Of a stretch of 64,000 bases of DNA, positions 1 through 62,964 are shown in pieces. Source of the DNA: a virus; the IMG/VR virus record IMGVR_UViG_3300042292_001109, positions 62,001 to 126,000 of that record, one strand, 5' to 3'. The translations under genes and the position numbers were made by a program. The notes below the pieces were generated by a model, which was not told the DNA's origin, made no database searches, and saw nothing but the letters and a program-made list of their open reading frames with translations. Within the stretch, counting starts at the first letter, position 1. Every line of letters begins with the position of its first letter.

Positions 1-130
1 TGATGAACAATACAATAAAATAGAAATTAAAAATGGACAAGCAATAATTTTGGAGCCAATGATTTATCACAGTTTTGAATCAGAATTATTACAATATATA
101 GAGTTTACAGGAGCAAACAATGCCAAGTAA
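1..130 (+). CDS. Partial CDS, C-terminal end of a possible cupin-like protein
   Basis: An open frame runs from base 2 to a TAA at 128-130 and gives the last 42 residues of a protein that begins before the window. The pattern of glycine, then hydrophobic-Glu-Pro-Met, a histidine and a closing beta strand ending IEFTG resembles the last strands of a cupin barrel, such as sugar isomerases or WxcM-like proteins. The stop lies 11 bases inside the next gene, so the two are probably translationally coupled. With so little visible the family is only a suggestion. Confidence 0.45.
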   Translation, partial: DEQYNKIEIKNGQAIILEPMIYHSFESELLQYIEFTGANNAK

Positions 131-1271
131 TTATTTTGCAGAAGGAGTGGATTTAGTCCCTCAATTAGTAAGTCGAGAATATTATCCTTCTACAATATTA
201 CCAAATGGGTTATTCTCTTGTGGAGCTAACGGCTTAGGCCAATTAGGATTAGGCGATAATGCTATTTCTAGATCTAGCCCCGTACAAATTGGAAGTTTAA
301 CAACTTGGAATAAATTAGCATGCGGGAGTCAACACACTTTAGCTACAAAAACCGATGGATCTTTATGGGCTTGGGGATATAATGAATTTGGTCAGTTAGG
401 ATTAGGCGATCGTACTCATAGATCAAGTCCAGTACAAGTTGGATCATTATTGACATGGAAGAACGTATCATGTGGAGGAAAATATACTTTAGCTACAAAA
501 ACCGATGGATCTTTATGGGCTTGCGGATATAACTCTTCTGGAGAGTTAGGATTAGGCGATACTACTTCAAGATCAAGTCCAGTACAAGTTGGTAGTTTAT
601 TGACCTGGAAGAATGTGGCATGCGGATACTTTCATACAGTAGCTACAAAAACCGATGGGTCTTTATGGGCTTGGGGATATAACTGGCAAGGGCAATTAGG
701 ATTAGGCGATAATATTGCTAGATCAAGTCCAGTTCAAGTTGGATCTTTATTAACTTGGGATAAGGTAGCAGGCGGTGGCTACTACGTGTTAGCTACAAAA
801 ACCGATGGGTCTTTGTGGGCTTGGGGAGGTAATGAATATGGGCAATTAGGATTAGGCGATACTACCTTTAGATCAAGCCCAGTTCAAGTTGGAAATTTAT
901 TGACTTGGAATAATCTATCAGGCGGATACTTTCATACAGTAGCTACAAAAACCGATGGGTCTTTATGGGCTTGGGGAACCAACACCCAAGGTGAGTTAGG
1001 ATTAATCGATAGAATCAATAGATCAAGCCCAGTACAAGTTGGATCGCTATTAAACTGGAATAAAATATCAAACGCGCCTACATCCTTTTCTACTAGAGCT
1101 ATAAAAACCGATGGGTCTTCATGGGCTTGGGGATATAATGGTTATGGACAATTAGGATTAGGCGATACTACTTCAAGATCAAGTCCAGTACAAGTTGGTA
1201 GTTTATTGACCTGGAAGAATGTGGCATACAGTAATAGCTTCAGTGTAGCCGAAATAAAGTCCCAGTTTTAA
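120..1271 (+). CDS. RCC1-repeat beta-propeller protein, likely virion adhesin or tail-fibre component
   Basis: The 383-residue protein is almost entirely seven RCC1-type repeats of about 50 residues. Each has the core T-D-G-S-L-W-A-W-G, then G-Q-L-G-L-G-D and R-S-S-P-V-Q-V-G. Seven copies fit a closed seven-bladed propeller. There is no signal peptide or membrane segment. It directly precedes glycan-modifying genes and the neck genes, where T4-like phages often carry fibre and adhesin genes, so a receptor-binding or fibre-decorating role is inferred. RCC1 propellers in other organisms bind protein or DNA partners, so the true ligand is open. The repeats are nearly identical in DNA, which suggests recent expansion or gene conversion. 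Confidence 0.75.
   Translation: MPSNYFAEGVDLVPQLVSREYYPSTILPNGLFSCGANGLGQLGLGDNAISRSSPVQIGSLTTWNKLACGSQHTLATKTDGSLWAWGYNEFGQLGLGDRTHRSSPVQVGSLLTWKNVSCGGKYTLATKTDGSLWACGYNSSGELGLGDTTSRSSPVQVGSLLTWKNVACGYFHTVATKTDGSLWAWGYNWQGQLGLGDNIARSSPVQVGSLLTWDKVAGGGYYVLATKTDGSLWAWGGNEYGQLGLGDTTFRSSPVQVGNLLTWNNLSGGYFHTVATKTDGSLWAWGTNTQGELGLIDRINRSSPVQVGSLLNWNKISNAPTSFSTRAIKTDGSSWAWGYNGYGQLGLGDTTSRSSPVQVGSLLTWKNVAYSNSFSVAEIKSQF
204..1242 (+). repeat. Tandem 150-bp coding repeats (seven RCC1 blades)
   Basis: Within the propeller gene a unit of about 150 bp recurs in frame. The most constant part of each unit is the stretch encoding A-T-K-T-D-G-S-L-W-A-W, seen near 342, 492, 642, 792, 942 and, more diverged, 1100. 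Conservation at synonymous positions is high, while the two loops after each W-G-x-N and G-D motif vary. Outer limits are approximate. Confidence 0.85.
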
Positions 1272-1309
1272 TATATATAATTATATTATTAACAACAGAG
1301 AATTATATT

Positions 1310-2077
1310 ATGAAAGAATACAACTTCATTACGGGATTACCTCGTTCAGGAACTACATTATTATCAACAATATTAAATCAAAATCCAGATTTTAATGCAT
1401 CTATCTCAGGTCCAGTTGCTAGATTTACCAGAGCAATTATTGAACAATCATCTGATCAAGGTGGTTATAGATTTCAATGCACAGAATTAAAACGTAAAGC
1501 AATTATTAAATCTATCTTTGATACATATTTTGAAGGCGATAAAGTACATTTTGATACAAATCGTGGATATCCATTAATGTTACCATTATTGAAGGATTTA
1601 TTTCCTCAAGCTAAGGTAATTGTTTGTGTTAGAGAGATTAGATGGATTTTAGATTCATTCGAAACGTTGATTAGAAAAAATCCATATACAGCTTCTAGTA
1701 TGTTTTCCCCTGAAGAAAACGTTAATGTTTATACAAGAACTCAGACATTATTAAGTGATAATAGAACTCTTGGGTTTGCGTATCATGCATTAAAACAAGG
1801 GTATTTTTCAACAGAACGATCAATGATGTTAATAGTAGATTATGAAAATTTAGCTAAAAATCCTAAAGTTGAGATGCAACGAATTTACAAATTTATAGAA
1901 AAACCGTATTTCGAACATAATTTTGATGACGTGGAATTTTCATTTGATGAATTTGATGCCGATGTTAATATGCCTGGATTACATACTACCAGAAAGAAAG
2001 TATCATTTATTAATAGACCATGTATTATTCCGCCAGATATTCAACAGCATGTAAAAGGTATGGAATTCTGGAAATAA
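1310..2077 (+). CDS. Sulfotransferase-family protein (PAPS-dependent)
   Basis: The 255-residue protein opens with the 5'-phosphosulfate-binding loop G-L-P-R-S-G-T-T-L-L at residues 9-18, the hallmark of the sulfotransferase P-loop family. A later R-x-x-x-x-x-x-x-S segment may be the 3'-phosphate-binding element. Such enzymes move sulfate from PAPS to a hydroxyl on a glycan, protein or small molecule. An APS-kinase-like gene three genes downstream could supply PAPS. The acceptor is unknown; the neighbouring propeller protein or host surface glycans are possible. The start is the ATG 38 bases after the propeller gene's stop. Confidence 0.82.
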   Translation: MKEYNFITGLPRSGTTLLSTILNQNPDFNASISGPVARFTRAIIEQSSDQGGYRFQCTELKRKAIIKSIFDTYFEGDKVHFDTNRGYPLMLPLLKDLFPQAKVIVCVREIRWILDSFETLIRKNPYTASSMFSPEENVNVYTRTQTLLSDNRTLGFAYHALKQGYFSTERSMMLIVDYENLAKNPKVEMQRIYKFIEKPYFEHNFDDVEFSFDEFDADVNMPGLHTTRKKVSFINRPCIIPPDIQQHVKGMEFWK

Positions 2078-2099
2078 CATATAAACGAGAAATTATAGT

Positions 2100-3452
2100 A
2101 TGACGTTGTTAGAAATAGCTATGTTTTTGCATGACAATAATAAAAGTAATTTGGCGCGCGAATTACTTAAAACTTTTGAATTACATGCATTTACGATAGA
2201 GCAAATGGATGAAATTATTGTAATTTACGATAAACTTCATTTTTATCAAGAAGTTATAGACTTAGCAATTAGAGAATTAGAGATTGCTACCGAGCAAGAA
2301 GAATATTTTATTAAAGTTAATTTAACTCGAGTTTATAATTTATTAAATGAGCCACATAAATCATTGGAATTGTCAAACTGGGTGCTTAATAAAACCCCCA
2401 ATAATGAAGATGTGTTAATTGAAAAGTCTATATCTTTATCATTGTTAAATAATAGGGATGAAGCTAATAAGCTTTTATTAGAACTTGAACAAAAGTCTAA
2501 TAATTCAGCAATTCGTAATGCAGTCAAACATAATCTTACCGCATATTATCTATCAAGACATGAATTTAATAAAGGGTTGTCTTGTATTTGGGATAACTCT
2601 AAACCTAAAGAAACCAATAAATACAATTTCGATTATTGGGATAAAACTCCTATTCAAGATGCAGTATTATTAATTGAATCTTATGGCGGATATGGCGATG
2701 AAATTATTAACATAAGATTTCTTGAAAATATTAAAGCGTTAGGTATGATCCCAGTATGGAAGACTCATAGAAAAGATATTCGAGATATTATTATTAGAAT
2801 GGGATATCAAGCAATCGAACACGTGACTGAATTAGACTCAACCAAATATACAGTTTGGTGTGTTTCTATGAGATTACCGTACCTATTAAATCTAGATGAA
2901 CATGAAATTGATAAAGGACCTTACTTAACAGCTACTCCTGAATCTATCGAAAAGTTTAAACAATATAGAGGTTGCGTTGGTATTAAATATTATGGAGAAA
3001 TAGGATACGAACATAATTTACATCGAACTCTAGATTTAGACGAATTAGTATCTAATATTTCGGAACAAGCAGTATTAGTTTCATTACATCAAGAACCAAT
3101 TCATTCCAACATTAGACCAATAATTGATTTATCGGCTAAATTAAAAACATTTGATGATACTCTAGGATTAATATATAATTTAGATTATGTCGTTTCCAGC
3201 TGTACTTCTGTGCCTCATGCAGCTGGAGCATTAGGAAAAGAAACTTATATTTTTACTCCAATATTTGAATACTATCTATGGAGTTCAACAACAGATACAT
3301 CAACTATCTGGTATAAGAATACGACTCTATTAAGACAAATTAAATGGAAATCATGGGCAGAACCAATGAATCAACTCAAATCGAAATTAGAAATCAGACA
3401 AGTATATGGAAATTCCACCATTTCCCTACCTAACAATAACAATTTATTATGA
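2100..3452 (+). CDS. TPR protein with C-terminal glycosyltransferase-like domain
   Basis: This 450-residue protein has an alpha-helical N-terminal half, about residues 1-170, with the spacing and small/aromatic pattern of tetratricopeptide repeats. Its C-terminal half resembles the nucleotide-sugar-binding lobe of GT9/GT41-like enzymes. The clearest motif is S-S-C-T-S-V-P-H-A-A-G-A-L-G-K near residues 365-380, where heptosyltransferases and SPINDLY/OGT relatives carry D-T/S-x-x-x-H-x-A-x-x-L-G. It probably glycosylates a protein, but donor and acceptor are not visible. It overlaps the next gene by four bases (ATGA). Confidence 0.6.
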   Translation: MTLLEIAMFLHDNNKSNLARELLKTFELHAFTIEQMDEIIVIYDKLHFYQEVIDLAIRELEIATEQEEYFIKVNLTRVYNLLNEPHKSLELSNWVLNKTPNNEDVLIEKSISLSLLNNRDEANKLLLELEQKSNNSAIRNAVKHNLTAYYLSRHEFNKGLSCIWDNSKPKETNKYNFDYWDKTPIQDAVLLIESYGGYGDEIINIRFLENIKALGMIPVWKTHRKDIRDIIIRMGYQAIEHVTELDSTKYTVWCVSMRLPYLLNLDEHEIDKGPYLTATPESIEKFKQYRGCVGIKYYGEIGYEHNLHRTLDLDELVSNISEQAVLVSLHQEPIHSNIRPIIDLSAKLKTFDDTLGLIYNLDYVVSSCTSVPHAAGALGKETYIFTPIFEYYLWSSTTDTSTIWYKNTTLLRQIKWKSWAEPMNQLKSKLEIRQVYGNSTISLPNNNNLL

Positions 3453-4012
3453 TTAAATTAAACCTTGGGTGCGGATATAATAAATTAGATGGATATATCA
3501 ACGTCGATTATGATCAAAATTGTAACCCTGATGTAATAGCAAATTTAGAAACTAAATTACCGTTCGATGATAATTCTGTTGACGAAATTATTCTTAATCA
3601 TGTATTAGAACATCTTGGGCAGCAAACAGATACCTTTTTAAATATTATTAAAGAATTTTATAGAATTTTAAGCGATCAAGGTCAATTAAAGATTGTAGTT
3701 CCGCATCATAATCACGAGAACTTTCACCACGACCCAACACACTGCAGAAAAATTACGCCTGTTACAATTGATATGTTTAATCAACATAGAAATAAACAAA
3801 CAATTGAATCTGGGGGTCAGGAAACTACATTAGGGTATCAGTGCAATGTTGATATAGAAGTATCACAAGTAGCTTATGATTGTGATACTGATATGTCTAA
3901 TCATAATATGCAAGAAATTATTGATATATCTAATACATATGGAAATGTATGCAGTCAAGTTAGAATCAATGCAATTATCCATAAGCCACCAAGATATCAT
4001 ACTCACCAATAG
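3449..4012 (+). CDS. Class I SAM-dependent methyltransferase
   Basis: The 187-residue protein begins with the S-adenosylmethionine-binding glycine loop L-N-L-G-C-G at residues 4-9. An acidic residue ends the following strand (I-N-V-D-Y-D), and an L-E-H-L motif sits near residue 54, as in small predicted methyltransferases of sugar and capsule clusters. A H-H-D-P-T-H segment downstream is typical of this subfamily. It overlaps the TPR/glycosyltransferase gene by four bases, which suggests that both act on the same glycan or protein. Substrate not identifiable. Confidence 0.78.
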   Translation: MIKLNLGCGYNKLDGYINVDYDQNCNPDVIANLETKLPFDDNSVDEIILNHVLEHLGQQTDTFLNIIKEFYRILSDQGQLKIVVPHHNHENFHHDPTHCRKITPVTIDMFNQHRNKQTIESGGQETTLGYQCNVDIEVSQVAYDCDTDMSNHNMQEIIDISNTYGNVCSQVRINAIIHKPPRYHTHQ

Positions 4013-4020
4013 AGAAAAAC

Positions 4021-4422
4021 ATGAAAATTTTAATAATGGGATTACCTAATTCCGGTAAAACAACATTAGCAAGGGAATTGGCTAAAATTTTACCAAATTC
4101 TGAATGGTTTAATGCAGATGAGATTAGAAAACAGTATAATGATTGGGATTTTAGCGATCAAGGAAGAATTCGTCAATGTGATAGAATAAAAAGATTAGCC
4201 GAGGATTCTAAAGCTGATTATGTTATTTGTGATTTCGTTGCTCCAACTAACGAAATTAGAAAATATTTTAGAGCAGATTTAATGATATTTATGGATACGA
4301 TTGATAGATGCGAATACGAGAATACAAATAAAATATTTGAAAAACCAAATAATTTTAACGTTAGGGTTGATAGTAAGCACGCATATTATTGGGCTACACA
4401 AGTAAAAAAAGCATTATTTTAA
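4021..4422 (+). CDS. APS-kinase-like P-loop kinase (CysC family)
   Basis: This short (133-residue) P-loop kinase carries G-L-P-N-S-G-K-T at residues 7-14. It then has W-F-N-A-D-E-I-R and F-S-D-Q-G-R-I, which match the adenylylsulfate kinase L-D-G-D-N-V-R and F-S-x-x-x-R motifs in spacing. It is shorter than cellular CysC (about 200 residues). APS kinase phosphorylates adenosine-5'-phosphosulfate to PAPS, the donor used by sulfotransferases such as the one at 1310-2077. A generic small-molecule kinase of the same fold is the alternative. Confidence 0.65.
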   Translation: MKILIMGLPNSGKTTLARELAKILPNSEWFNADEIRKQYNDWDFSDQGRIRQCDRIKRLAEDSKADYVICDFVAPTNEIRKYFRADLMIFMDTIDRCEYENTNKIFEKPNNFNVRVDSKHAYYWATQVKKALF

Positions 4423-4425
4423 AAT

Positions 4426-4471
4426 AATCCTTTTATTATAAATAGATAATAAAGTTTAAAATAAAAGGATT
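4426..4471 (+). promoter_or_regulatory. 12-bp inverted repeat enclosing a late promoter and covering the gp13 ribosome site
   Basis: AATCCTTTTATT at 4426-4437 is the perfect reverse complement of AATAAAAGGATT at 4460-4471. The right arm contains AAGGA, the ribosome-binding site of the gene starting at 4476. The late promoter box lies between the arms, so RNA read through from upstream can fold and hide the site, while RNA started at the late promoter lacks the left arm. Confidence 0.75.
4437..4444 (+). promoter_or_regulatory. T4-type late promoter for the gp13-gp17 block
   Basis: Exact TATAAATA, the T4 late-promoter element recognised by gp55 with gp33 and the gp45 clamp. It is 32 bases before the gp13 start, in a gene-free gap. 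Confidence 0.85.
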
Positions 4472-4475
4472 TTCC

Positions 4476-5222
4476 ATGGCACATGTTACAACAAGAGATG
4501 AATTAAAAGATTATGCTCTAAGAAGATTAGGTGCTCCAGTAATAAAGATAAATGTTGATGATAATCAATTAGAAGATAGAATAGATGATGCATTACAATT
4601 CTATCAAGATTACCATTATGATGCAACTGAATCTTTTTATTGGATGCATGTAATTACACAAGAAGATGTTAATCAAAGGTATTTTAATGTCGATCCAGGC
4701 ATTTTAGGTATTACAAGAGTATTTCCTCTTAATGATACAATTACAAAAAATAATATGTTTGATTTAAGATATCAACTTCGCCTCCATGAATTATATGATT
4801 TTACATCGACGTCATATACTAATTTCTCTATTACAATGCAACATCTCCAAAATTTAAGCGAGATGTTTACTGGAGACGTTCCAATTAGATTTCAAAGGCA
4901 TACTCGTAAGTTATATGTTGATTGGGGTTGGGGTTCTGCTCAAATACCAGTTGGTACTAATGTAATTGCAGAAGGATATAAAGCTATTGATCCAGAAACA
5001 TATGAAAGCGTTTATAATGACCGTTGGCTAAAAGAATACGTTACTTCATTGTTTAAACGTCAATGGGGTGATAATATGAAAAAATTTGGCGGTATTCAAC
5101 TTCCAGGTGGATTAACATTAAACGGAAAAGAAACATATGATGAGGCAACAGCAGATATTCAAAGATTAGAAACTGAAATGCAAGATAGATACGAATTGCC
5201 TGTTCAATTTTTAGTTGGATAA
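4476..5222 (+). CDS. 13: Neck protein gp13
   Basis: The 248-residue protein matches the gp13 family of T4-like neck proteins in its N-terminal half: a helix with R-D-E-L-K-D-Y-A-L-R-R-L-G, then a basic/acidic segment and an aromatic-rich strand region. Gp13 and gp14 build the collar that seals the packaged head and accepts the tail. It is shorter than T4 gp13 (about 309 residues), as in many environmental relatives. It is the first gene of the late block gp13-14-15-16-17 and has a good AAGGA site five bases before the ATG. Confidence 0.93.
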   Translation: MAHVTTRDELKDYALRRLGAPVIKINVDDNQLEDRIDDALQFYQDYHYDATESFYWMHVITQEDVNQRYFNVDPGILGITRVFPLNDTITKNNMFDLRYQLRLHELYDFTSTSYTNFSITMQHLQNLSEMFTGDVPIRFQRHTRKLYVDWGWGSAQIPVGTNVIAEGYKAIDPETYESVYNDRWLKEYVTSLFKRQWGDNMKKFGGIQLPGGLTLNGKETYDEATADIQRLETEMQDRYELPVQFLVG

Positions 5223-5227
5223 ACATT

Positions 5228-6091
5228 ATGCCAAGTAAATATTTTCAGAATTATGGTAAACCTGCAGTCGAGATAAATTTAATTGAGGATCTCTACAACG
5301 AGGCGATAAATATCCAAGGCTTTAGCGGGTACTATATTCCAAATACGAACGTTGAAGGACGAGATTTGATCTATGGAGACGATCCTTTAAAGCATTTTGA
5401 TGACGCGTATAAAATGGATATGTATCTTGTCAATACAATGGATTATGGAGACGAACAGGATTTCTTTTCTAAATTTGGATTGGAAGTAAGAAACCAGACT
5501 AAAATTCAATTTACCTTTAAAGAATTTATGAAACGAACTAATAATCAGTTCGAAGTTCCAAAGGAAGGAAATTTAATTTTTATTCCATTTTTTAAAGATT
5601 CAGGCGAATTATTTGAAATTAAGTTTGTTAACACATCAAAAGATTTATATACTCTAGGTAGAATAAGACCATTTTATTACGAATTATCTCTTGAACCGTT
5701 CAAATATAATGACGAAAGCCTTGATACTGGTATTGAGTTTATTGATGAAATAGAACTTATTGAAGCATATAAAACGATAATTGACGTTCAAAATGGAACC
5801 GGTAATTACGTGGCTGGCGAAATTATTTATCAAGGAGCTGCAAATAATAAATTAGCTCAAGCTGAAGTAGTTTCTTGGGATGCAGCAAATACAATATTAG
5901 TTGTAATGAATACCAAAGGGGAATTCTCTAACACAGCAGGATCTATTGTTGGTCAAACAAGTAATTCTAGCTATTTATTAACTGTCGTTGATACGAAAAT
6001 TCGTGAATCTCAATTCGATAATTTACCAATATTTAATGAAGTTATTGGATTCTTAGACTCATCACAAGGTTTTGGTAGTTTAAAATACTAA
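5228..6091 (+). CDS. 14: Neck protein gp14
   Basis: This 287-residue protein lies directly after gp13, as in T4. Its start (M-P-S-K-Y-F) and the segments Y-G-D-D-P-L-K and F-S-K-F-G-L-E are typical of gp14. It forms part of the collar that joins head and tail. The C-terminal part contains an inserted beta-rich section (about residues 195-260), of the sort also present in gp15, with the pattern G-E-x-I-Y-Q-G then V-S-W-D. The shared insert may be a small decoration domain. Confidence 0.93.
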   Translation: MPSKYFQNYGKPAVEINLIEDLYNEAINIQGFSGYYIPNTNVEGRDLIYGDDPLKHFDDAYKMDMYLVNTMDYGDEQDFFSKFGLEVRNQTKIQFTFKEFMKRTNNQFEVPKEGNLIFIPFFKDSGELFEIKFVNTSKDLYTLGRIRPFYYELSLEPFKYNDESLDTGIEFIDEIELIEAYKTIIDVQNGTGNYVAGEIIYQGAANNKLAQAEVVSWDAANTILVVMNTKGEFSNTAGSIVGQTSNSSYLLTVVDTKIRESQFDNLPIFNEVIGFLDSSQGFGSLKY

Positions 6092-6100
6092 GGGTAAAAT

Positions 6101-7063
6101 ATGACATATAGATTACAATCAATAAGAAAAACTACCATTGCATTTGCTAGTTTATTTAAAGATATTCCATTAATAAAATACGATGATAATGGGATAGAAG
6201 TAGAAAGAATGATAGTTCCTATTATCTATGGCGATAAAGAAAAATATGTAAAAAGATTAGATATTTCGCGCGAAAAAGTCCAAATAACTTTACCTCGTAT
6301 TGAATATGGGTTAACGACCATGGAGTATGATGTAGATAGAAAATTAAACCCTGTAAATAAATTGATGGGGTGCGCTGGATTAGGAGATACTTATGTTAAT
6401 TCACCTATTCCATATAATTTTAATTTTGAATTAATATTGTACACAAGAAATATTGAAGATGCCAATCAAATAATGGAATATATTTTGTCGCATTTTCAAC
6501 CGGATTATAATATGCGTATCGTTATGGTTCCGGAAGCAGGTATAATTAAAACTATACCCGTAACATTTAATGGAGATTCCGAAGAAGAAGATTCAACAGG
6601 TTCATTTGATTCTCCAGTTAGATCTGTATTTAGAACGTTAACATTTACAGCCAGAAGTTTTATTTACCAACCGCCATTAACATATATTCCAATTTTAACT
6701 GCGAATACAAATATGTATATTCCTCAAAATTATACTTACATTAATTTAAAATTAATTGATGGATTCGGTGATTTTGTTGGAGGGGAAAATATATATCAAG
6801 GATATAATTATGACACAGCTTCAGCAAAAGCAACAGTGGCTTCATGGGATAAATATACAAAAATATTATCTGTGTCAAATGTAATAGGCTCATTTACTAA
6901 ACACGCATTACTAAGAAATGTTGCAGGATCTGCAGAATATTTTATAGGAGAATTACCCGAAAGCGGATTAGTTTATGCAACATCAATAACTCCAACTCCA
7001 AATACTTTTCCACCAATTGGTCCATATGCATTAGATGTAGTAATAATTGATAAAACAATATAA
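6101..7063 (+). CDS. 15: Tail sheath terminator gp15
   Basis: The 320-residue protein follows gp14 and matches gp15, the hexameric ring that caps the tail sheath and tube and docks to the neck. Its N-terminal region (residues 15-100) is the conserved core, including the I-V-P-I-x-Y-G-D-K-E segment. The C-terminal quarter carries an insert with G-G-E-N-I-Y-Q-G and V-A-S-W-D, like that in the preceding gp14, so the two structural proteins share a small repeat-like domain. Confidence 0.93.
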   Translation: MTYRLQSIRKTTIAFASLFKDIPLIKYDDNGIEVERMIVPIIYGDKEKYVKRLDISREKVQITLPRIEYGLTTMEYDVDRKLNPVNKLMGCAGLGDTYVNSPIPYNFNFELILYTRNIEDANQIMEYILSHFQPDYNMRIVMVPEAGIIKTIPVTFNGDSEEEDSTGSFDSPVRSVFRTLTFTARSFIYQPPLTYIPILTANTNMYIPQNYTYINLKLIDGFGDFVGGENIYQGYNYDTASAKATVASWDKYTKILSVSNVIGSFTKHALLRNVAGSAEYFIGELPESGLVYATSITPTPNTFPPIGPYALDVVIIDKTI

Positions 7064-7066
7064 CTT

Positions 7067-7498
7067 ATGAGTAAATTTAATAGAACGATGGAGGATTTAT
7101 TTAACGTTCCTTCACCGGTGACAGAAGAAGAAACTGAATTTGCAGAATTTTTACCTGTAGAATCAACGCATGACCTTTCAACATTACTCGATCATGATTT
7201 AAAAACTGATTACGAAAGAACCCGCGAAAGTATCGATATATTAATATCAAAAGGAACTGAAGCAATTGATGATATGTTAGCTATTGCTAGGCAATCAGAA
7301 AAAGCTCGCGATTTTGAAGTCGCAGGTAATATGATCAAAACTGTTGTTGATGCATCAAAAGAACTACTAGAAGTTCAAAAGAAAATGCGCGACATTACCG
7401 GAAAAAAAGAAACCGTTACACAAAATATAAAAAATGCAGTTTTCGTTGGATCCACAAAAGATTTAATAAGATCTATTAAAAATGAGAATACTGAATGA
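7067..7498 (+). CDS. 16: Terminase small subunit gp16
   Basis: The 143-residue, helix-rich acidic protein sits immediately before the large terminase and overlaps it by four bases (ATGA), the classic gp16-gp17 arrangement. The central long helices, residues about 40-120, fit the coiled-coil oligomerisation region of gp16. Gp16 forms rings, stimulates the gp17 ATPase and helps select concatemeric DNA for packaging. Confidence 0.92.
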   Translation: MSKFNRTMEDLFNVPSPVTEEETEFAEFLPVESTHDLSTLLDHDLKTDYERTRESIDILISKGTEAIDDMLAIARQSEKARDFEVAGNMIKTVVDASKELLEVQKKMRDITGKKETVTQNIKNAVFVGSTKDLIRSIKNENTE

Positions 7499-9210
7499 TT
7501 GATTTTGAAGGCAGTAATAAATTATATTATAGAGATAACCCTAATTTAAGAAGAGCAGGCATTGAAAATTGGGAATTTGATGAATTCCAAAGAGATGAGA
7601 TTAGAAAATGTATTAATAATCCAATATATTTTATTAGAAATTATGTAAAAATTATTAATCTTGATGAAGGTCTTGTTTATTTTGATATGCATGATTACCA
7701 AGAAGAAATGGTTCAAGCATTTCATGAGAATAGATTTTCTATTGTAAGAATTGGTCGACAATCAGGTAAAACCACCACATCTGTTGGTTATCTTTTATGG
7801 TTATCGCTATTTACTGAAAATTATAACATTGCTATTACTGCCAATAAAAAATCATTAGCTGTTGAGATTCTATCTAGATACCAATTAGCATATGAAAATT
7901 TACCTATGTGGCTACAACAAGGTATTGTTATATGGAATAAAGGTAGTATTGAGTTAGAAAATGGTTCTAAGATGTTAGCAGCTTCTACTGCTGCTTCTTC
8001 TGTTCGTGGCGGATCATTTAACCTTGTATTTATGGACGAGTTTGCTCACGTTCATAATAACTTAGCAGAAGAATTCTTTACTTCAACATATCCTGTAATT
8101 TCATCAGGTAAAACTACAAAAATTATTATTGTATCTACTCCTCGTGGTATGAATTTATACTACAAAATGTGGATGGATGCAGTAAGTAAAAAGAGTGATT
8201 ATAAAGCTGTTGATATTCATTGGTCTAGAGTTCCAGGGCGCGATGAAAACTGGAAAGAAACTACGATTAGAAATACTTCTGCTCGTCAGTTTAACCAAGA
8301 ATTTGGTTGCGAATTTTTAGGTTCTACAAATACATTAATCGACGGATCTAAATTACAAACTCTTGTTGCAATAGATCCATTAGATACAGATGATGAAATA
8401 TTCTCCGGAATAACAATTCCAAATGAAATGGATGTATTTATTCCTCCAGTTAAAGAATCATTTGATGAAGAAACGAAAAAACAAATAGATAAAGATCACA
8501 TCTATGCAATGACTGTTGACGTTTCAGAAGGGAAAAACTTAGATTATGCCGCATTTTCTATTTTTGATGTATCAACAATTCCATATACTCAAGTAGCTAC
8601 ATATAGAAATAATCAATTGCATCCAATGTTATTTCCAGATATTATTAAAATGGCTGGAGAATATTACAACAACGCATATGTATTAATTGAGGTAAATAAT
8701 AATCCAACGGTAGCAGATACTCTATTTCAAGATTTAGAATATGAAAATGTATTAAAAGTTTATGCTGGAAATAAAAAAGCTCAACAAATAAGCGAAAACG
8801 GTAAAGCAACACAAAATGGCGTCAATATGAGTCCATTAGTAAAACGTGTTGGGTGTACTACATTAAAAACGTTAATTGAAACTGATAAATTACGAATTAA
8901 TTCTAGCGAAACAATATATGAACTAACTCGATTTATTGCAACAAATAATTCATTTGCAGCTGAAGAAGGTGCAAATGATGATTTAGCAATGACTCTTGTC
9001 ATTTTTGCTTGGTTATCTACTCAAAAATTATTTATAGAATTATCTTCTACAGATATTCGCAAAAGATTACAAATAGAAAATAATTATATTAAAGAAGATG
9101 ATATTGATGTTCCGCCTATGCCACAATTTAGTAACCCATTAATGGATAGATTTACATTAGAAGATGGAGATTTATGGGAAACTGTTCAACCTGCAGCATT
9201 TTATTATTAA
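7495..9210 (+). CDS. 17: Terminase large subunit gp17 (packaging ATPase and nuclease)
   Basis: This 571-residue protein has an ATPase domain with Walker A R-I-G-R-Q-S-G-K-T-T near residues 85-94, and Walker B/catalytic V-F-M-D-E-F near 178-183. A coupling S-T-P-R-G motif follows. The C-terminal RNase H-like nuclease shows the acidic positions T-V-D-V-S-E-G near 340 and N-D-D-L-A near 495. It pumps DNA into the prohead and makes the headful cut. Length and motif order match T4 gp17 (610 residues). Confidence 0.97.
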   Translation: MIDFEGSNKLYYRDNPNLRRAGIENWEFDEFQRDEIRKCINNPIYFIRNYVKIINLDEGLVYFDMHDYQEEMVQAFHENRFSIVRIGRQSGKTTTSVGYLLWLSLFTENYNIAITANKKSLAVEILSRYQLAYENLPMWLQQGIVIWNKGSIELENGSKMLAASTAASSVRGGSFNLVFMDEFAHVHNNLAEEFFTSTYPVISSGKTTKIIIVSTPRGMNLYYKMWMDAVSKKSDYKAVDIHWSRVPGRDENWKETTIRNTSARQFNQEFGCEFLGSTNTLIDGSKLQTLVAIDPLDTDDEIFSGITIPNEMDVFIPPVKESFDEETKKQIDKDHIYAMTVDVSEGKNLDYAAFSIFDVSTIPYTQVATYRNNQLHPMLFPDIIKMAGEYYNNAYVLIEVNNNPTVADTLFQDLEYENVLKVYAGNKKAQQISENGKATQNGVNMSPLVKRVGCTTLKTLIETDKLRINSSETIYELTRFIATNNSFAAEEGANDDLAMTLVIFAWLSTQKLFIELSSTDIRKRLQIENNYIKEDDIDVPPMPQFSNPLMDRFTLEDGDLWETVQPAAFYY

Positions 9211-34758: not shown

Positions 34759-35160
34759 ATGAGTGACATTTTTAATGGATATGGCGTTGAGGTATTTATT
34801 GATGAGAATAATTTTTTAAAAATTAAAGAAACGTTATCTAGAATTGGCGTATTATCTAAAAAAGATAAAACTTTATATCAATCATGTCATATCTTACATA
34901 AACAAGGTAGATATGTAATTATCCATTTTAAAGAATTATTTGGTCTGGATAACAAATCTCATGAAATTAGTGAAAATGATATTGCTAGAAGAAATACTAT
35001 TGTAAACCTTTTAAGGGATTGGGAACTATTGGAAATTAGACATGAAGATGAATGTAAATCTCCATTAGTTCCAATTAGTCAAATTAAAATTTTATCGTAT
35101 AAAGAAAAAGATGAATATAATTTGGTTAGTAAATATAACATCGGCAAAGTTAAAAAATAA
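34759..35160 (+). CDS. regA: Translational repressor RegA
   Basis: The 133-residue protein matches T4 RegA (122 residues), which binds start regions of early mRNAs to repress translation. Typical segments are V-F-I-D-E-N-N-F-L-K-I-K-E-T-L-S-R-I-G and Y-V-I-I-H-F-K-E-L-F. It is in the T4 order gp62-regA-gp43, here with PAAR, hsp20 and small genes in between. Its stop overlaps the next start (TAATG). Confidence 0.93.
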   Translation: MSDIFNGYGVEVFIDENNFLKIKETLSRIGVLSKKDKTLYQSCHILHKQGRYVIIHFKELFGLDNKSHEISENDIARRNTIVNLLRDWELLEIRHEDECKSPLVPISQIKILSYKEKDEYNLVSKYNIGKVKK

Positions 35161-55068: not shown

Positions 55069-55593
55069 ATGGATAATAAATATAAAAATAAATTAACTTC
55101 TATTATTGAAGATTGCGGTTTTAATAGAACACGTAAAGCTAATCAAAAAGAAATAGAACAAGCTTTATTTGAAGCTACAAAACCTGGATATCCGCCTGAA
55201 GAAGCTCAAGATCCAAGTTCAAAAGAAGGAATTTCCAATGCAATTGCTTCTGAATTTTTTGCTCGTTGTAGAGCTCTAGCTACAACTACTCATTTTGCTC
55301 ATTTAAGTACAGATTCTTTTTCGGAACATTCTGCTCTAACAACTTTTTATGAAGAAATTGTTGAAACTGTAGATAAATTCTGTGAAGCTTATATTGGATT
55401 ATATGGTAAATTTATTAGTTTGCCTCCAATTGCTGCTGAAATGAAAATCGCAGTTGATGCTATTATAGAATTTAGGGATTGGATTTCTAAAAATAGAGGA
55501 TTAATTACTGATGATACTTCTATGCAAAATATAATTGACGAATCTGTTGAATTATGCAATACTACAATTTATAAATTACAAAAATTGAAATAA
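55069..55593 (+). CDS. Ferritin-like (Dps-like) phage protein
   Basis: The 174-residue helical protein resembles a phage ferritin-like family, with T-T-H-F-A-H near residues 70-75, then E-H-S-A-L-T-T-F-Y-E-E, then I-V-E-T-V-D-K-F-C-E. The helix pattern and acidic/His positions recall Dps, but a full di-iron site is not evident. It might bind DNA or iron, or be purely structural. The first 60 residues are an extra, less ordered region. Confidence 0.6.
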   Translation: MDNKYKNKLTSIIEDCGFNRTRKANQKEIEQALFEATKPGYPPEEAQDPSSKEGISNAIASEFFARCRALATTTHFAHLSTDSFSEHSALTTFYEEIVETVDKFCEAYIGLYGKFISLPPIAAEMKIAVDAIIEFRDWISKNRGLITDDTSMQNIIDESVELCNTTIYKLQKLK

Positions 55594-58561: not shown

Positions 58562-58972
58562 ATGAGTAAAGTTGAATTAAAAGATTATGAAGCATTTGTC
58601 CAATCAACAATTTCACAACCATCATCAATTTTTGGTATTCTGGAATCAAGGTTGAGCGAATTGGATGGTAATAAATTAGGAATTTTAATTCCTGAATTAT
58701 TAACTGCTTCTTTTGGTTTAACTGCTGAGGCAGGTGAATTTACTGAAGTTGTTAAGAAAATCGTATTTCAAGGTAAACCGCTAGATGAAGATAATATCTT
58801 TCACTTGAAGCGCGAATTAGGTGATATTTTATGGTATGTAGTTGTTGCTTGTAATGCATTAAATATTACGTTAGAAGATGCTATTGTAATGAATGTCGAG
58901 AAGTTATCCGCTAGATATCCGCAAGGTTTTGATATTATTAAATCAGAAGTTAGACAAGAAGGTGACGTGTAA
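58562..58972 (+). CDS. mazG: MazG-family nucleotide pyrophosphohydrolase
   Basis: The 136-residue protein has the MazG/all-alpha NTP pyrophosphohydrolase motifs: G-L-T-A-E-A-G-E-F near residues 51-59 and K-R-E-L-G-D-I-L-W-Y near 80-89, the paired E-x-x-E / E-x-x-D metal sites. It hydrolyses NTPs or dNTPs to monophosphates. Phage MazG is common in cyano- and pelagi-type phages. Confidence 0.88.
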   Translation: MSKVELKDYEAFVQSTISQPSSIFGILESRLSELDGNKLGILIPELLTASFGLTAEAGEFTEVVKKIVFQGKPLDEDNIFHLKRELGDILWYVVVACNALNITLEDAIVMNVEKLSARYPQGFDIIKSEVRQEGDV

Positions 58973-59154
58973 TGGGTAGAGCAATTATTGAAGCAGGTTT
59001 TGTTTTAATATTGTATTTTTTGATTATCGGAATTGTTTGCCCGTATCTAGTTTCGGCTAGAGATGACATTGAAGTAATTTCCGGTTTTGTTTTAATTGTA
59101 TTAACTGCTGCAACAGTACCATCTGTTGTAAAATATATTTTTAGAGGTGTGTGA
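58972..59154 (+). CDS. Small two-span membrane protein
   Basis: The 60-residue protein has two hydrophobic stretches (about residues 6-26 and 35-56) with a short acidic loop. It shares one base with the mazG stop (TAATG). Function unknown. Confidence 0.68.
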   Translation: MGRAIIEAGFVLILYFLIIGIVCPYLVSARDDIEVISGFVLIVLTAATVPSVVKYIFRGV

Positions 59155-59155
59155 T

Positions 59156-59350
59156 ATGTTAATTGAAAATGTTGAGATGTTTGTTGATAAAGATACGTTT
59201 GCGCCGAAAGCTAGAGTTACTCTTATTTTGGATATTGAATCATTAATGGATGCTACTGCAGTATTACCTAGAGAACAATTAGCCGAAATGTTTTTAAGTA
59301 AATGGGAAACGGCTTATGCTGATTATAAGAAAAAAATGATTGGAGAATAA
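59156..59350 (+). CDS. Hypothetical small acidic protein
   Basis: The 64-residue protein has a beta-strand start and a helical end. AGAGG nine bases upstream supports the ATG at 59156. It is followed two bases later by the SPFH gene. No family recognised. Confidence 0.65.
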   Translation: MLIENVEMFVDKDTFAPKARVTLILDIESLMDATAVLPREQLAEMFLSKWETAYADYKKKMIGE

Positions 59351-59352
59351 AA

Positions 59353-60198
59353 GTGAAAAAATTATTATGGTTGTTAGTGATTCTATTCCTTGTTGCTTGT
59401 TCTAATGTTCCTCCAGGTTATACTGGAATTAAGGTATTTTTAAATGGCGGTGACAAGGGCGTGGATAGTCAAGTATTAGGCGTTGGGCGTTACTGGATCG
59501 GTGTTAATGAAGACTTATTCTTATTCCCAACATTTACGCAAAACCATGTTTGGACCAAAGCTTCTACTGAAGGTAGCCCAAATGATGATTCGTTTACATT
59601 TCAAACCAGACAAGGTTTAACTGTAAATACTGATGTTGGTATTAGTTATCATATCGAACCAGATAAAGTGACTGATATTTTTCAGAAATATCGCAAAGGC
59701 GTTAGTGAAATTACTCATGTTGTATTACGCAATAGCGTGAGAGATGCGTTTAACAAAGCTGCTTCATCTAGAGATATTGAATCTGTTTATGGTGAGGGTA
59801 AAAGTGCTTTAATTGATGATGTAACTACTCTTGTTCGTCATGATATGGATTCAGTTGGTATTAAAATAGAAAGCATTTATTTGGTTGGCGATATGCGTTT
59901 ACCTGAATCTATTGTTGAATCTATTAATGCTAAAATTCAAGCATTACAAAAAACTCAACAACGAGAAAATGAAGTAGCGCAATCAAAAGCTGAGGCAGAT
60001 AAAACTATTGCTGAAGCTCGAGGTGTAGCTGAATCTAAGATTGCTATTGCTAAAGCAGAAGCTGAGGCGATTGAAATTAAAGGTGCTGCATTGAGAAATA
60101 ACCCAAGCGTGCTTGAGCTAAATAAAATCGATAAATGGAATGGTGAATTGCCTCAGTATATGACTGGACCAGTTCCAATGTTAAATTTTACAAAATAA
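59353..60198 (+). CDS. SPFH/prohibitin-domain lipoprotein (GTG start)
   Basis: The 281-residue protein has a lipoprotein signal (basic start, hydrophobic core, L-V-A-C with Cys16), then a band-7/SPFH domain (about 20-180; P-P-G-Y-T-G-I-K-V at its start) and a helical Ala/Glu-rich coiled coil (190-245), as in HflC and prohibitin. SPFH proteins form membrane rings that control proteases and membrane domains. A phage copy may stabilise the envelope or block superinfection; this is inference. GTG is used, with GGAG upstream. Confidence 0.85.
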   Translation: MKKLLWLLVILFLVACSNVPPGYTGIKVFLNGGDKGVDSQVLGVGRYWIGVNEDLFLFPTFTQNHVWTKASTEGSPNDDSFTFQTRQGLTVNTDVGISYHIEPDKVTDIFQKYRKGVSEITHVVLRNSVRDAFNKAASSRDIESVYGEGKSALIDDVTTLVRHDMDSVGIKIESIYLVGDMRLPESIVESINAKIQALQKTQQRENEVAQSKAEADKTIAEARGVAESKIAIAKAEAEAIEIKGAALRNNPSVLELNKIDKWNGELPQYMTGPVPMLNFTK

Positions 60199-60225
60199 AA
60201 CTTTATAATTAGTATATGGATAATG

Positions 60226-60243
60226 AGTTGCAGGGATGCAACT
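60226..60243 (+). terminator. Hairpin before nrdB, weak terminator
   Basis: AGTTGC-agggat-GCAACT followed by a T-rich, interrupted stretch. It may partly end transcription after the SPFH gene. Confidence 0.5.
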
Positions 60244-60271
60244 ATTTTAATTTTTATTGAAAAGGACTAAT

Positions 60272-61261
60272 ATGGCTATTAGATTACTGACGCCAAAGGA
60301 AACATACACTGTTGATTACCCAGTGGCGATTGAATTTGCTAGAAAACAGCAAGAAATTATGTGGTTTGATTTTGAAATTGAGGTCGAAAAAGACCTACAT
60401 GATATAAGAACTAATTTTAACGAAGCGGAACTCTATGGATTGACTTCTACTTTAAAATTATTTACCAAATATGAAATTTCAGTTAATGAATACTGGAAAA
60501 ATTATGTTGCTCAGGTGTTTCCGAGACCTGATATTCAAAGAATGGCTGATGCCTTTGCTTTTATGGAAACTAATGTTCATGCTCCTTTTTATAATAAAAT
60601 TAATCAAGTTTTAGGTTTAGATACTGATGAATTTTACTTATCATATCTAGATGATGAAGTTTTAGTTAATAGAATGAAATGGATCGGTAAACGTTTATCG
60701 AAAAGAGAAACTTTAATGGATAAATTAAAATCTGTTGGAATTTTCTCTATGGTTGAAGGAGCTGTTTTATTTGGCCAGTTTGCTTTTATTAAACATTTTA
60801 ATTCAAATGGTAAAAATAAAGCAATTAATGTAAATGCTGGAATTAACTTTTCCGCTATTGATGAATCTTTACATTCGCAAGGCGGTGCTTGGTTATTTAG
60901 AACGTTATTAGCTGAAGCAAAAGTTGATGGACAATTTAGCGAAGAAGATGAATTGCATTTACGTTCTGAATTAGAGGAAACTGCTCGAGTAATTAGAGAA
61001 CATGATGGATTTATTAATGGTAAAACTTTTGAAAAAGGTCATATTAAAGGTGTTACAGAAACTCAGTTAAATAATTTCACTGAATCTAGATTAGACATGT
61101 GTTTAAAACAATTAGGTTATAAATCTATTTTTAAACCGTCGTGGAATCCAATTGCAGAATGGTTTTATAAAGACTTAGAATCAACTACACTACACGATTT
61201 CTTTAGTTCGACTGGTAGTGACTACAACCGCAACTGGAAAGAGGCAAGATTTGTATGGTAA
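60272..61261 (+). CDS. nrdB: Ribonucleotide reductase small subunit NrdB
   Basis: The 329-residue di-iron protein supplies the tyrosyl radical for class Ia reductase. Recognisable are W-F-D-F-E-I-E-V-E-K-D, M-E-T-N-V-H-A-P-F-Y near residues 92-101 and D-E-S-L-H near 201-205, which carry iron ligands. The ATG at 60272 follows AAAAGGA. It overlaps nrdA by seven bases. Confidence 0.94.
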   Translation: MAIRLLTPKETYTVDYPVAIEFARKQQEIMWFDFEIEVEKDLHDIRTNFNEAELYGLTSTLKLFTKYEISVNEYWKNYVAQVFPRPDIQRMADAFAFMETNVHAPFYNKINQVLGLDTDEFYLSYLDDEVLVNRMKWIGKRLSKRETLMDKLKSVGIFSMVEGAVLFGQFAFIKHFNSNGKNKAINVNAGINFSAIDESLHSQGGAWLFRTLLAEAKVDGQFSEEDELHLRSELEETARVIREHDGFINGKTFEKGHIKGVTETQLNNFTESRLDMCLKQLGYKSIFKPSWNPIAEWFYKDLESTTLHDFFSSTGSDYNRNWKEARFVW

Positions 61262-62964
61262 AGCAAGAAAAATCAATTTATGATGAATTGAGTGATGAGA
61301 GAAAAGAGTTACAAGAAACTGGTCAACTGCCTGCATGGTGCACAACTATTGCTTGGCAAATGCTTAAGGAGAAAAACCTTTCTGCTGAGTGTCCAGATTT
61401 AAAATCAGTTTATAATCGAATAACTAAACATGCTGCAAAATATACTCCAAATCCTGATGAATGGCAACCTAAATTTTTTGAATTATTATGGAATGGTTGG
61501 TTGGCTGCCTCTACTCCAGTTTTATCTAATATGGGAACTGGATTTGGTTGTCCTGTTAGTTGTTCTGGAGGAGAAATTCCAGATAGCGTTTTTGGATTCT
61601 ATGGAGCTCAACAAGAGGCTGCTGTATTAAGTAAAAATGGTTTCGGTACTAGTGGCTACCTAGGAAAGATTAGACACCGTGGAGCTCCTATCAAGGGCGT
61701 TAAAGGAGGAGCTTCAGGCGTTCTCCCAGTCTTTAAAGATTTTATTCAAATGTCCAGAGATATTTCTCAAGGTAGTCAACGTCGCGGAGCTTGGGCTGGG
61801 TATATTGAAATTGATCATCCAGATTTTTATGAGATTGTAAATTTTATTAGCAAAAACCCCGATGATGCAAATCTTGGATGGGTTGTTACTGATGAATTTA
61901 TTGCTCGATTAGATGCTAATGATAATGAAGCCACATTACGTTATCAATTAGCATTAAAAACTAAAATGATTACTGGAAAAGGATATTTCTTTTTTGTTGA
62001 TCGAGTTAATAATCTTAGTCCTCAAATGTATAAAGATAAAGGATTAAGAGTAAATGCATCTAATCTCTGTACGGAGATCGCTTTACACTCCAGCGAAGAT
62101 TATACATTTAGCTGCGTTTTATCCTCGATGAATGCTTCACTTTATGATGAGTGGAAAGATACTGACGCAGTATTTAATGCAACAGTATTCCTAGATTGTG
62201 TTAATCAAGATTTAATTGAAATCGGTAAAACACAACCTGGAATGGAAAAAGTTGTTGCTTTTGCTACAGCATCTAGAGCTCTTGGTTTGGGTATGCTTGG
62301 GTTCCATACATATTTACAAGACCATAATATTCCATTTGAATCAATGGACGCTTATTATAAAAATACTGAGATCTTTAAACATTTAGATGTGGAATCATTA
62401 CGAGCATCTAAATGGATGGCAGAAAATTGGGGTGAACCGGAATGGTGTGTAGGTTATGGTGTAAGAAATACTCATCGAGTTGCTATTGCTCCAAATCTCA
62501 GTTCAGCTTTAATCTGTGGTTCTGTTAGTCAGGGAATTGAACCAATTTATAAAAATGCTTATGTTCAAAATACCTCTGCTGGTAAAATGGATCGCGTTAA
62601 CCCATCATTATTAACAGTGATGAAAAACAAAGGCGTTTATACAGATGCAGTGGTTAAAGACATTATAAGTAATAACGGTTCAGTTCAACATGTTACTTGG
62701 TTAGATGATAATGAAAAAGCAGTATTTAAAACAGCTTTTGAGATTGATCAAAAACAAATTGTTAGATTAGCATCAGCTCGTCAACGTTATATTGATCAAG
62801 CTCAAAGCATTAATTTCTTCTTTTCAGCTGATGAAGATGAAGAATATATTAGCGAAGTTCATAAATTGGCATTTAAAGATCCATGGATTAAATCATTGTA
62901 TTATGTTAGATCTGAAAATGGAGTAAATGTTACTAAAGGTGAATGTGTTGCTTGTCACGGTTAA
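61255..62964 (+). CDS. nrdA: Ribonucleotide reductase large subunit NrdA, short form
   Basis: The 569-residue class I reductase has the active-site N-L-C-T-E near residues 276-280, the redox cysteines C-P-V-S-C near 98-102 and C-V-L-S, S-Q-R-R-G-A-W-A near 176-183, and a C-terminal redox pair C-V-A-C at the end. It reduces ribonucleotides with NrdB. It is about 190 residues shorter than T4 NrdA, and the N-terminal ATP-cone regulatory domain is absent. Confidence 0.94.
   Translation: MVKQEKSIYDELSDERKELQETGQLPAWCTTIAWQMLKEKNLSAECPDLKSVYNRITKHAAKYTPNPDEWQPKFFELLWNGWLAASTPVLSNMGTGFGCPVSCSGGEIPDSVFGFYGAQQEAAVLSKNGFGTSGYLGKIRHRGAPIKGVKGGASGVLPVFKDFIQMSRDISQGSQRRGAWAGYIEIDHPDFYEIVNFISKNPDDANLGWVVTDEFIARLDANDNEATLRYQLALKTKMITGKGYFFFVDRVNNLSPQMYKDKGLRVNASNLCTEIALHSSEDYTFSCVLSSMNASLYDEWKDTDAVFNATVFLDCVNQDLIEIGKTQPGMEKVVAFATASRALGLGMLGFHTYLQDHNIPFESMDAYYKNTEIFKHLDVESLRASKWMAENWGEPEWCVGYGVRNTHRVAIAPNLSSALICGSVSQGIEPIYKNAYVQNTSAGKMDRVNPSLLTVMKNKGVYTDAVVKDIISNNGSVQHVTWLDDNEKAVFKTAFEIDQKQIVRLASARQRYIDQAQSINFFFSADEDEEYISEVHKLAFKDPWIKSLYYVRSENGVNVTKGECVACHG

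Follow-up and report, generated by a model that had tools for sequence, protein, structure and literature searches.

The DNA analyzed here (the window) is a 64-kb stretch, bases 62001–126000 of a 126,085-base IMG/VR record from an uncultivated T4-like phage. The neighborhood of interest is a T4-like morphogenesis block in which gp13–gp17 are followed by the tail sheath, tail tube, scaffold and major head protein genes (Table 1). The nearest gp13 proteins from isolates are distant (Stenotrophomonas DLP6, 45% identity; Pelagibacter Mosig, 42%; Methylophilales Melnitz, 41%). At the gathering score, Rfam had no match in 4300–4700, and only 7 tRNAs were found across the window.

Table 1. Coordinates of the gp13 leader elements and flanking genes in the window.
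Feature	Position	Strand	Basis or remark
Upstream co-directional genes: RCC1-repeat, sulfotransferase, unknown, methyltransferase, APS-kinase-like	120–4422	+	Possible source of read-through
Left arm, AATCCTTTTATT	4426–4437	+	Sequence; upstream of the predicted late start, so in read-through RNA only
Late promoter, T4-type, TATAAATA	4437–4444	+	Within the hairpin; the T4 late promoter consensus occupies −13 to −6 (PMC1524935)
Predicted late +1	4450 (±1–2 nt)	+	Inferred from TATAAATA at −13 to −6
Right arm, AATAAAAGGATT	4460–4471	+	Sequence; extends from 4455
Shine-Dalgarno-like AAGGA	4465–4469	+	Inside the right arm
gp13, neck / head-tail adaptor Ad2, 248 aa	4476–5222	+	PHROG 211, E 7e-40
gp14, gp15, gp16, gp17, remainder of the gp13 transcription unit	5228–9210	+	Intergenic gaps of at most 9 nt

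An earlier note on this DNA had described perfect 12-bp arms around TATAAATA, with AAGGA in the right arm ahead of gp13, as a late promoter nested in a hairpin that includes the ribosome-binding site (RBS). The arms, TATAAATA and AAGGA were confirmed in the sequence at the places given, and the nested anatomy is supported. The first T of TATAAATA is at the same time the last base of the left arm, and 39 nt separate the promoter from the gp13 ATG at 4476. A repeat search extends the arm pairing to 17 nt at 94% complementarity, with one mismatch (4426–4442 with 4455–4471). The note went too far in proposing that "neck proteins" in general are gated: the ribosome site held in the hairpin is that of gp13 only, and gp14–gp17 could be affected solely via translational coupling. 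The octamer TATAAATA by itself is no evidence for a promoter, since 16 copies were found where 20 were expected; it is a promoter candidate because of its position before gp13 and because the same motif precedes gp18, gp19 and the scaffold gene. A separate perfect palindrome, ATTATTTTAAAATAAT, lies at 4414–4429, where it spans the upstream stop codon and shares four bases with the left arm; it is present in the relative L005 too, and it could compete with the gp13 hairpin.

Folding predictions differ strongly between the two RNAs that could carry the gp13 start. The hairpin of the read-through RNA is predicted at −15.0 kcal/mol (z −2.2), and the late RNA is predicted to be nearly unfolded (−1.5 kcal/mol). 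The predicted cost of opening the RBS is ∼7.5 kcal/mol in read-through RNA versus 1.4 in RNA begun at 4450. Across all flank lengths and starts tried, the cost was 7.1–8.7 versus 1.3–2.2 kcal/mol, and the result was insensitive to a late start anywhere within 4447–4452. The Shine-Dalgarno (SD) site of gp13, its AUG or both are in this way predicted to be sequestered in upstream-initiated RNA. We propose that RNA entering from the upstream genes would carry both arms, fold and hide the gp13 Shine-Dalgarno site, whereas RNA begun at the late promoter between the arms, at ∼4450, would be without the left arm and would therefore leave the site exposed. In consequence, gp13 would be made essentially from its own late promoter only, regardless of the upstream genes. 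The gp13 leader is probably a cis-acting RNA switch whose state depends on where transcription begins. What supports this reading is the anatomy, the rarity of the placement, the accessibility as predicted, and the covariation within two clades of gp13.

Upstream regions of gp13 were gathered from IMG/VR by protein and pattern scans. The earlier note had staked its reading on conservation or covariation of the arms in relatives, and the arms do covary, in two clades. In the clade of the window (which also holds L005, L006, L007 and L011), the promoter core TATAAATAGATAATAAA hardly changes, and the arms vary together: 95% of cells are paired, and 3 pairs are altered on both sides versus 0–1 in slid controls. 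The L006 arms, TTCCTATATTAT and ATAATATAGGAA, are quite different in sequence, keep full complementarity and have the same promoter between them. Likewise, in L058, whose gp13 shows only 61% identity in the best segment, the arms around the promoter (GTATCTACCTTTTG and CAAAAGGTAGATAC) differ markedly in sequence yet pair fully. In a second gp13 clade the left arm lies over the 3' half of the promoter and the bases immediately preceding +1, as in TATAAATAGTCCTAG..CTAGGACTATT; here 5 pairs and 19 cells are altered on both sides, and the covariation score was reached in 0 of 500 shuffles. When the left half of one gp13 leader was joined to the right half of another, sequestration was lost (p 2e-6), with 26% of native gp13 leaders reaching at least 6 kcal/mol versus 4% of the swapped ones; the same swap had no such effect on non-gp13 late promoters (p 0.23). 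Together, the covariation in two clades and the swap null argue that the helix is kept by selection in relatives. Searches at the DNA level gave, for the promoter core, gp13 leaders and unrelated sites and, for the exact left arm plus promoter, nothing beyond two look-alikes in coding sequence and L092, which duplicates L001.

Two observations on individual relatives are recorded here. L007 has a 73-nt block with the late promoter and left arm in two copies that are 97% identical (3261–3333 and 4908–4980), one preceding a 489-aa gene and the other gp13; the hairpin of the first copy is imperfect. The duplication suggests that a promoter cassette was copied together with an accessory gene, or flanks one. 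In the L078 and L079 gp13 leaders, a strong hairpin (AAATAGTTGGGA and TTCCAACTATTT) begins in TATAAATA and has the ribosome site outside it, and likely serves a different role.

Among the ∼24 late-promoter/gene pairs of the 126-kb record, gp13's is the sole outlier, and a genome-wide rule of sequestered late promoters was accordingly rejected. In a comparison set of 105 non-redundant late promoters, those of gp13 showed more sequestration than the others (MWU p 1.3e-6), even with at least one gp13 promoter (L208) classed as "other", which works against the gp13 excess; none of nine gp18 promoters was sequestered. The hairpin is also far from universal at gp13: nearly half of the regions upstream of gp13 are without TATAAATA, and many leaders that have it are without a hairpin (e.g. 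L361, L350 and L109). In a widened set of 64 gp13 promoter clusters, strong sequestration (at least 4 kcal/mol) was found in 24 of the 54 whose upstream neighbor is co-directional versus 0 of the 9 whose neighbor lies on the opposite strand (MWU p 0.0085, Fisher p 0.009, both before tree correction), a contrast that fits the read-through rationale. On the gp13 tree of all 64 rows the hairpin label needs 17 changes, so at that threshold the hairpin has been gained or lost many times. The tree-corrected orientation test goes in the right direction with a sign test that is not significant, and since it lacks power, having only ∼2 informative independent pairs, the orientation result is suggestive only.

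Several other explanations of the hairpin were weighed. The most improbable of them is chance pairing in A/T-rich DNA. No perfect 12-bp inverted repeat in the window other than the gp13 pair has a loop of at most 30 nt, and shuffles of the window yield 0.6 such repeats per 64 kb on average, so the existence of the repeat is by itself unremarkable genome-wide. In read-through RNA, opening the RBS is predicted to cost 7.5 kcal/mol where the shuffles average 3.1, and 21 of 1500 left-flank shuffles reach the observed value (this result takes precedence over a smaller run with 0 of 100); with ∼24 promoters examined, this energy test, which considers the window by itself, is modest evidence. What speaks against chance is that a 12-bp stem reaching the RBS region arose in only 5 of 3000 shuffles of the 45-nt left flank, so that the placement of the stem is rare by chance, and that the arms covary in relatives. 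It is also highly improbable that the repeat acts as DNA, either as an operator bound by a dimeric protein or by forming a cruciform at the promoter, the RNA pairing being a by-product. Promoter-centered inverted repeats are typical of operators, and an excess of G-U over A-C pairs, which would prove action at the RNA level, was not above shuffles, so that covariation by itself is also compatible with a DNA-level constraint. However, the arm sequences differ freely between relatives yet stay complementary, and the ribosome site recurrently falls within the right arm.

It is very unlikely that the hairpin is a terminator, stopping upstream RNA just short of gp13 and passed by late RNA for want of the left arm. 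L208 does have a GC-rich stem followed by UUUUUU and L342 a U-rich tail, and in L208, L212 and L216 the hairpin overlaps the promoter and ends in a T run resembling an intrinsic terminator, unlike nearly all others. But of the 27 gp13 clusters with strong sequestration, only 2 have at least 5 U among the 8 nt that follow the stem, on which ground this reading was rejected for most clusters, and the window stem is followed by TTCC, with no terminator found at 4426–4480 by the scan. Translational coupling is somewhat less remote, though still improbable. Here the ribosome that ends the upstream kinase gene would cover the left arm and open the hairpin, making gp13 proportional to the upstream gene. 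The last upstream stop codon (4420–4422) ends just 3 nt before the left arm, so that a terminating ribosome could indeed open the hairpin; L005 is alike, and in several relatives the upstream gene ends within ∼15 nt of the arm. On the other hand, arms are present in L058, where the upstream open reading frame (ORF) ends 201 nt before gp13, and in L007, where it ends 113 nt before the promoter, and coupling leaves the promoter between the arms unexplained.

The mechanism proposed for the gp13 switch is already known and is of the T4 e/I-TevI type. In T4, structured RNA lowers lysozyme synthesis from gene e by ∼100-fold; the same design has been described for soc, 49 and I-TevI, and similar ones for segB and for mobE of phage Aeh1 (PMC3014915, PMC2988022). 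Gene e resembles gp13 in having a T4-type late promoter beside a hairpin, the SD in the right arm and, by prediction in the case of gp13, late RNA without the left arm, and its late promoter is conserved in T4-type relatives (PMC3014915). The parallel drawn earlier with gene e is upheld by these papers and by a control on the gene e leader of the T4-type phage RB10, which is of the overlapping-arm form and gave 13.5 vs 4.3 by the measure used for gp13. The two differ in that the e left arm extends over the 3' half of the promoter (AATACCTTC), the form seen in the second gp13 clade, whereas the window arms flank the promoter. With its A/U-rich stem, in which two pairs are G-C, the gp13 hairpin is expected to be weaker than that of T4 e. 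Moreover, e is a lysis gene with a measured effect, and gp13 a neck gene whose effect is predicted. In I-TevI, segB and Aeh1 mobE, as predicted for gp13, the position of the late promoter leaves the ribosome site free in late RNA (PMC2988022), but they are mobile endonucleases rather than a structural gene, and the read-through RNA of I-TevI is early or middle, whereas that of gp13 is putative. RB10 gene 13 is orthologous to the window gp13 and also lies after fiber genes. Its leader differs: a GC-rich hairpin (GGGGCC..GGCCCC) precedes the RBS, there is no such RBS sequestration and, unlike in the window leader, TATAAATA does not occur within the 100 nt inspected.

The upstream region bears on what the switch would do. 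Going upstream, the next TATAAATA is met at record base 55234, ∼11.2 kb off among tail-fiber genes, and a scan found no terminator-like site on the + strand between window base 1 and 4476. A sigma-70 scan upstream of gp13 gave sites no more numerous than in shuffles and is therefore uninformative about early promoters; the late sigma factor gp55 was not located in the non-exhaustive set of proteins scanned. In proposing that the hairpin prevents premature synthesis, the earlier note outruns the evidence. The co-directional tail-fiber, RCC1-repeat and accessory genes upstream may themselves be late, in which case "early" may not apply to the putative read-through RNA. If that RNA is late, the device would insulate the gp13 dose from variable upstream genes and not delay gp13, a possibility to which the distant TATAAATA among the tail-fiber genes also points. 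More tentatively, with the balance tipping slightly against it, gene 13 may be a recurrent control target in uncultivated T4-like phages, with the hairpin rebuilt with new arms and serving as a dose insulator, not an early/late timer. The hairpin would then arise wherever the late promoter sits behind co-directional variable genes, and neck-protein dose would be independent of accessory or fiber genes inserted upstream. In the literature searched, which lay mostly outside subscription journals, there was no report of such a switch at gene 13 or of its being recurrent in environmental T4-like phages. With the gp13 leader, a mode of control seen in T4 at lysis and homing-endonuclease genes would also reach an assembly gene of uncultivated T4-like phages, and the comparative evidence, covarying arms that differ in sequence per clade, comes from more than one genome. 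It raises the question of why a neck protein should be shielded from read-through RNA, and makes the variable region upstream of gp13 a meeting place of gene insertion and expression control. Several RCC1-repeat genes are found in this fiber/accessory region upstream of gp13 (window 120–1271; record bases 58676–61729), next to sulfotransferase and APS-kinase-like genes. Elsewhere in the window, a RegA-type translational repressor homologue is encoded at 34759–35160 (PHROG 242), with TATAAATA 47 nt before its start.
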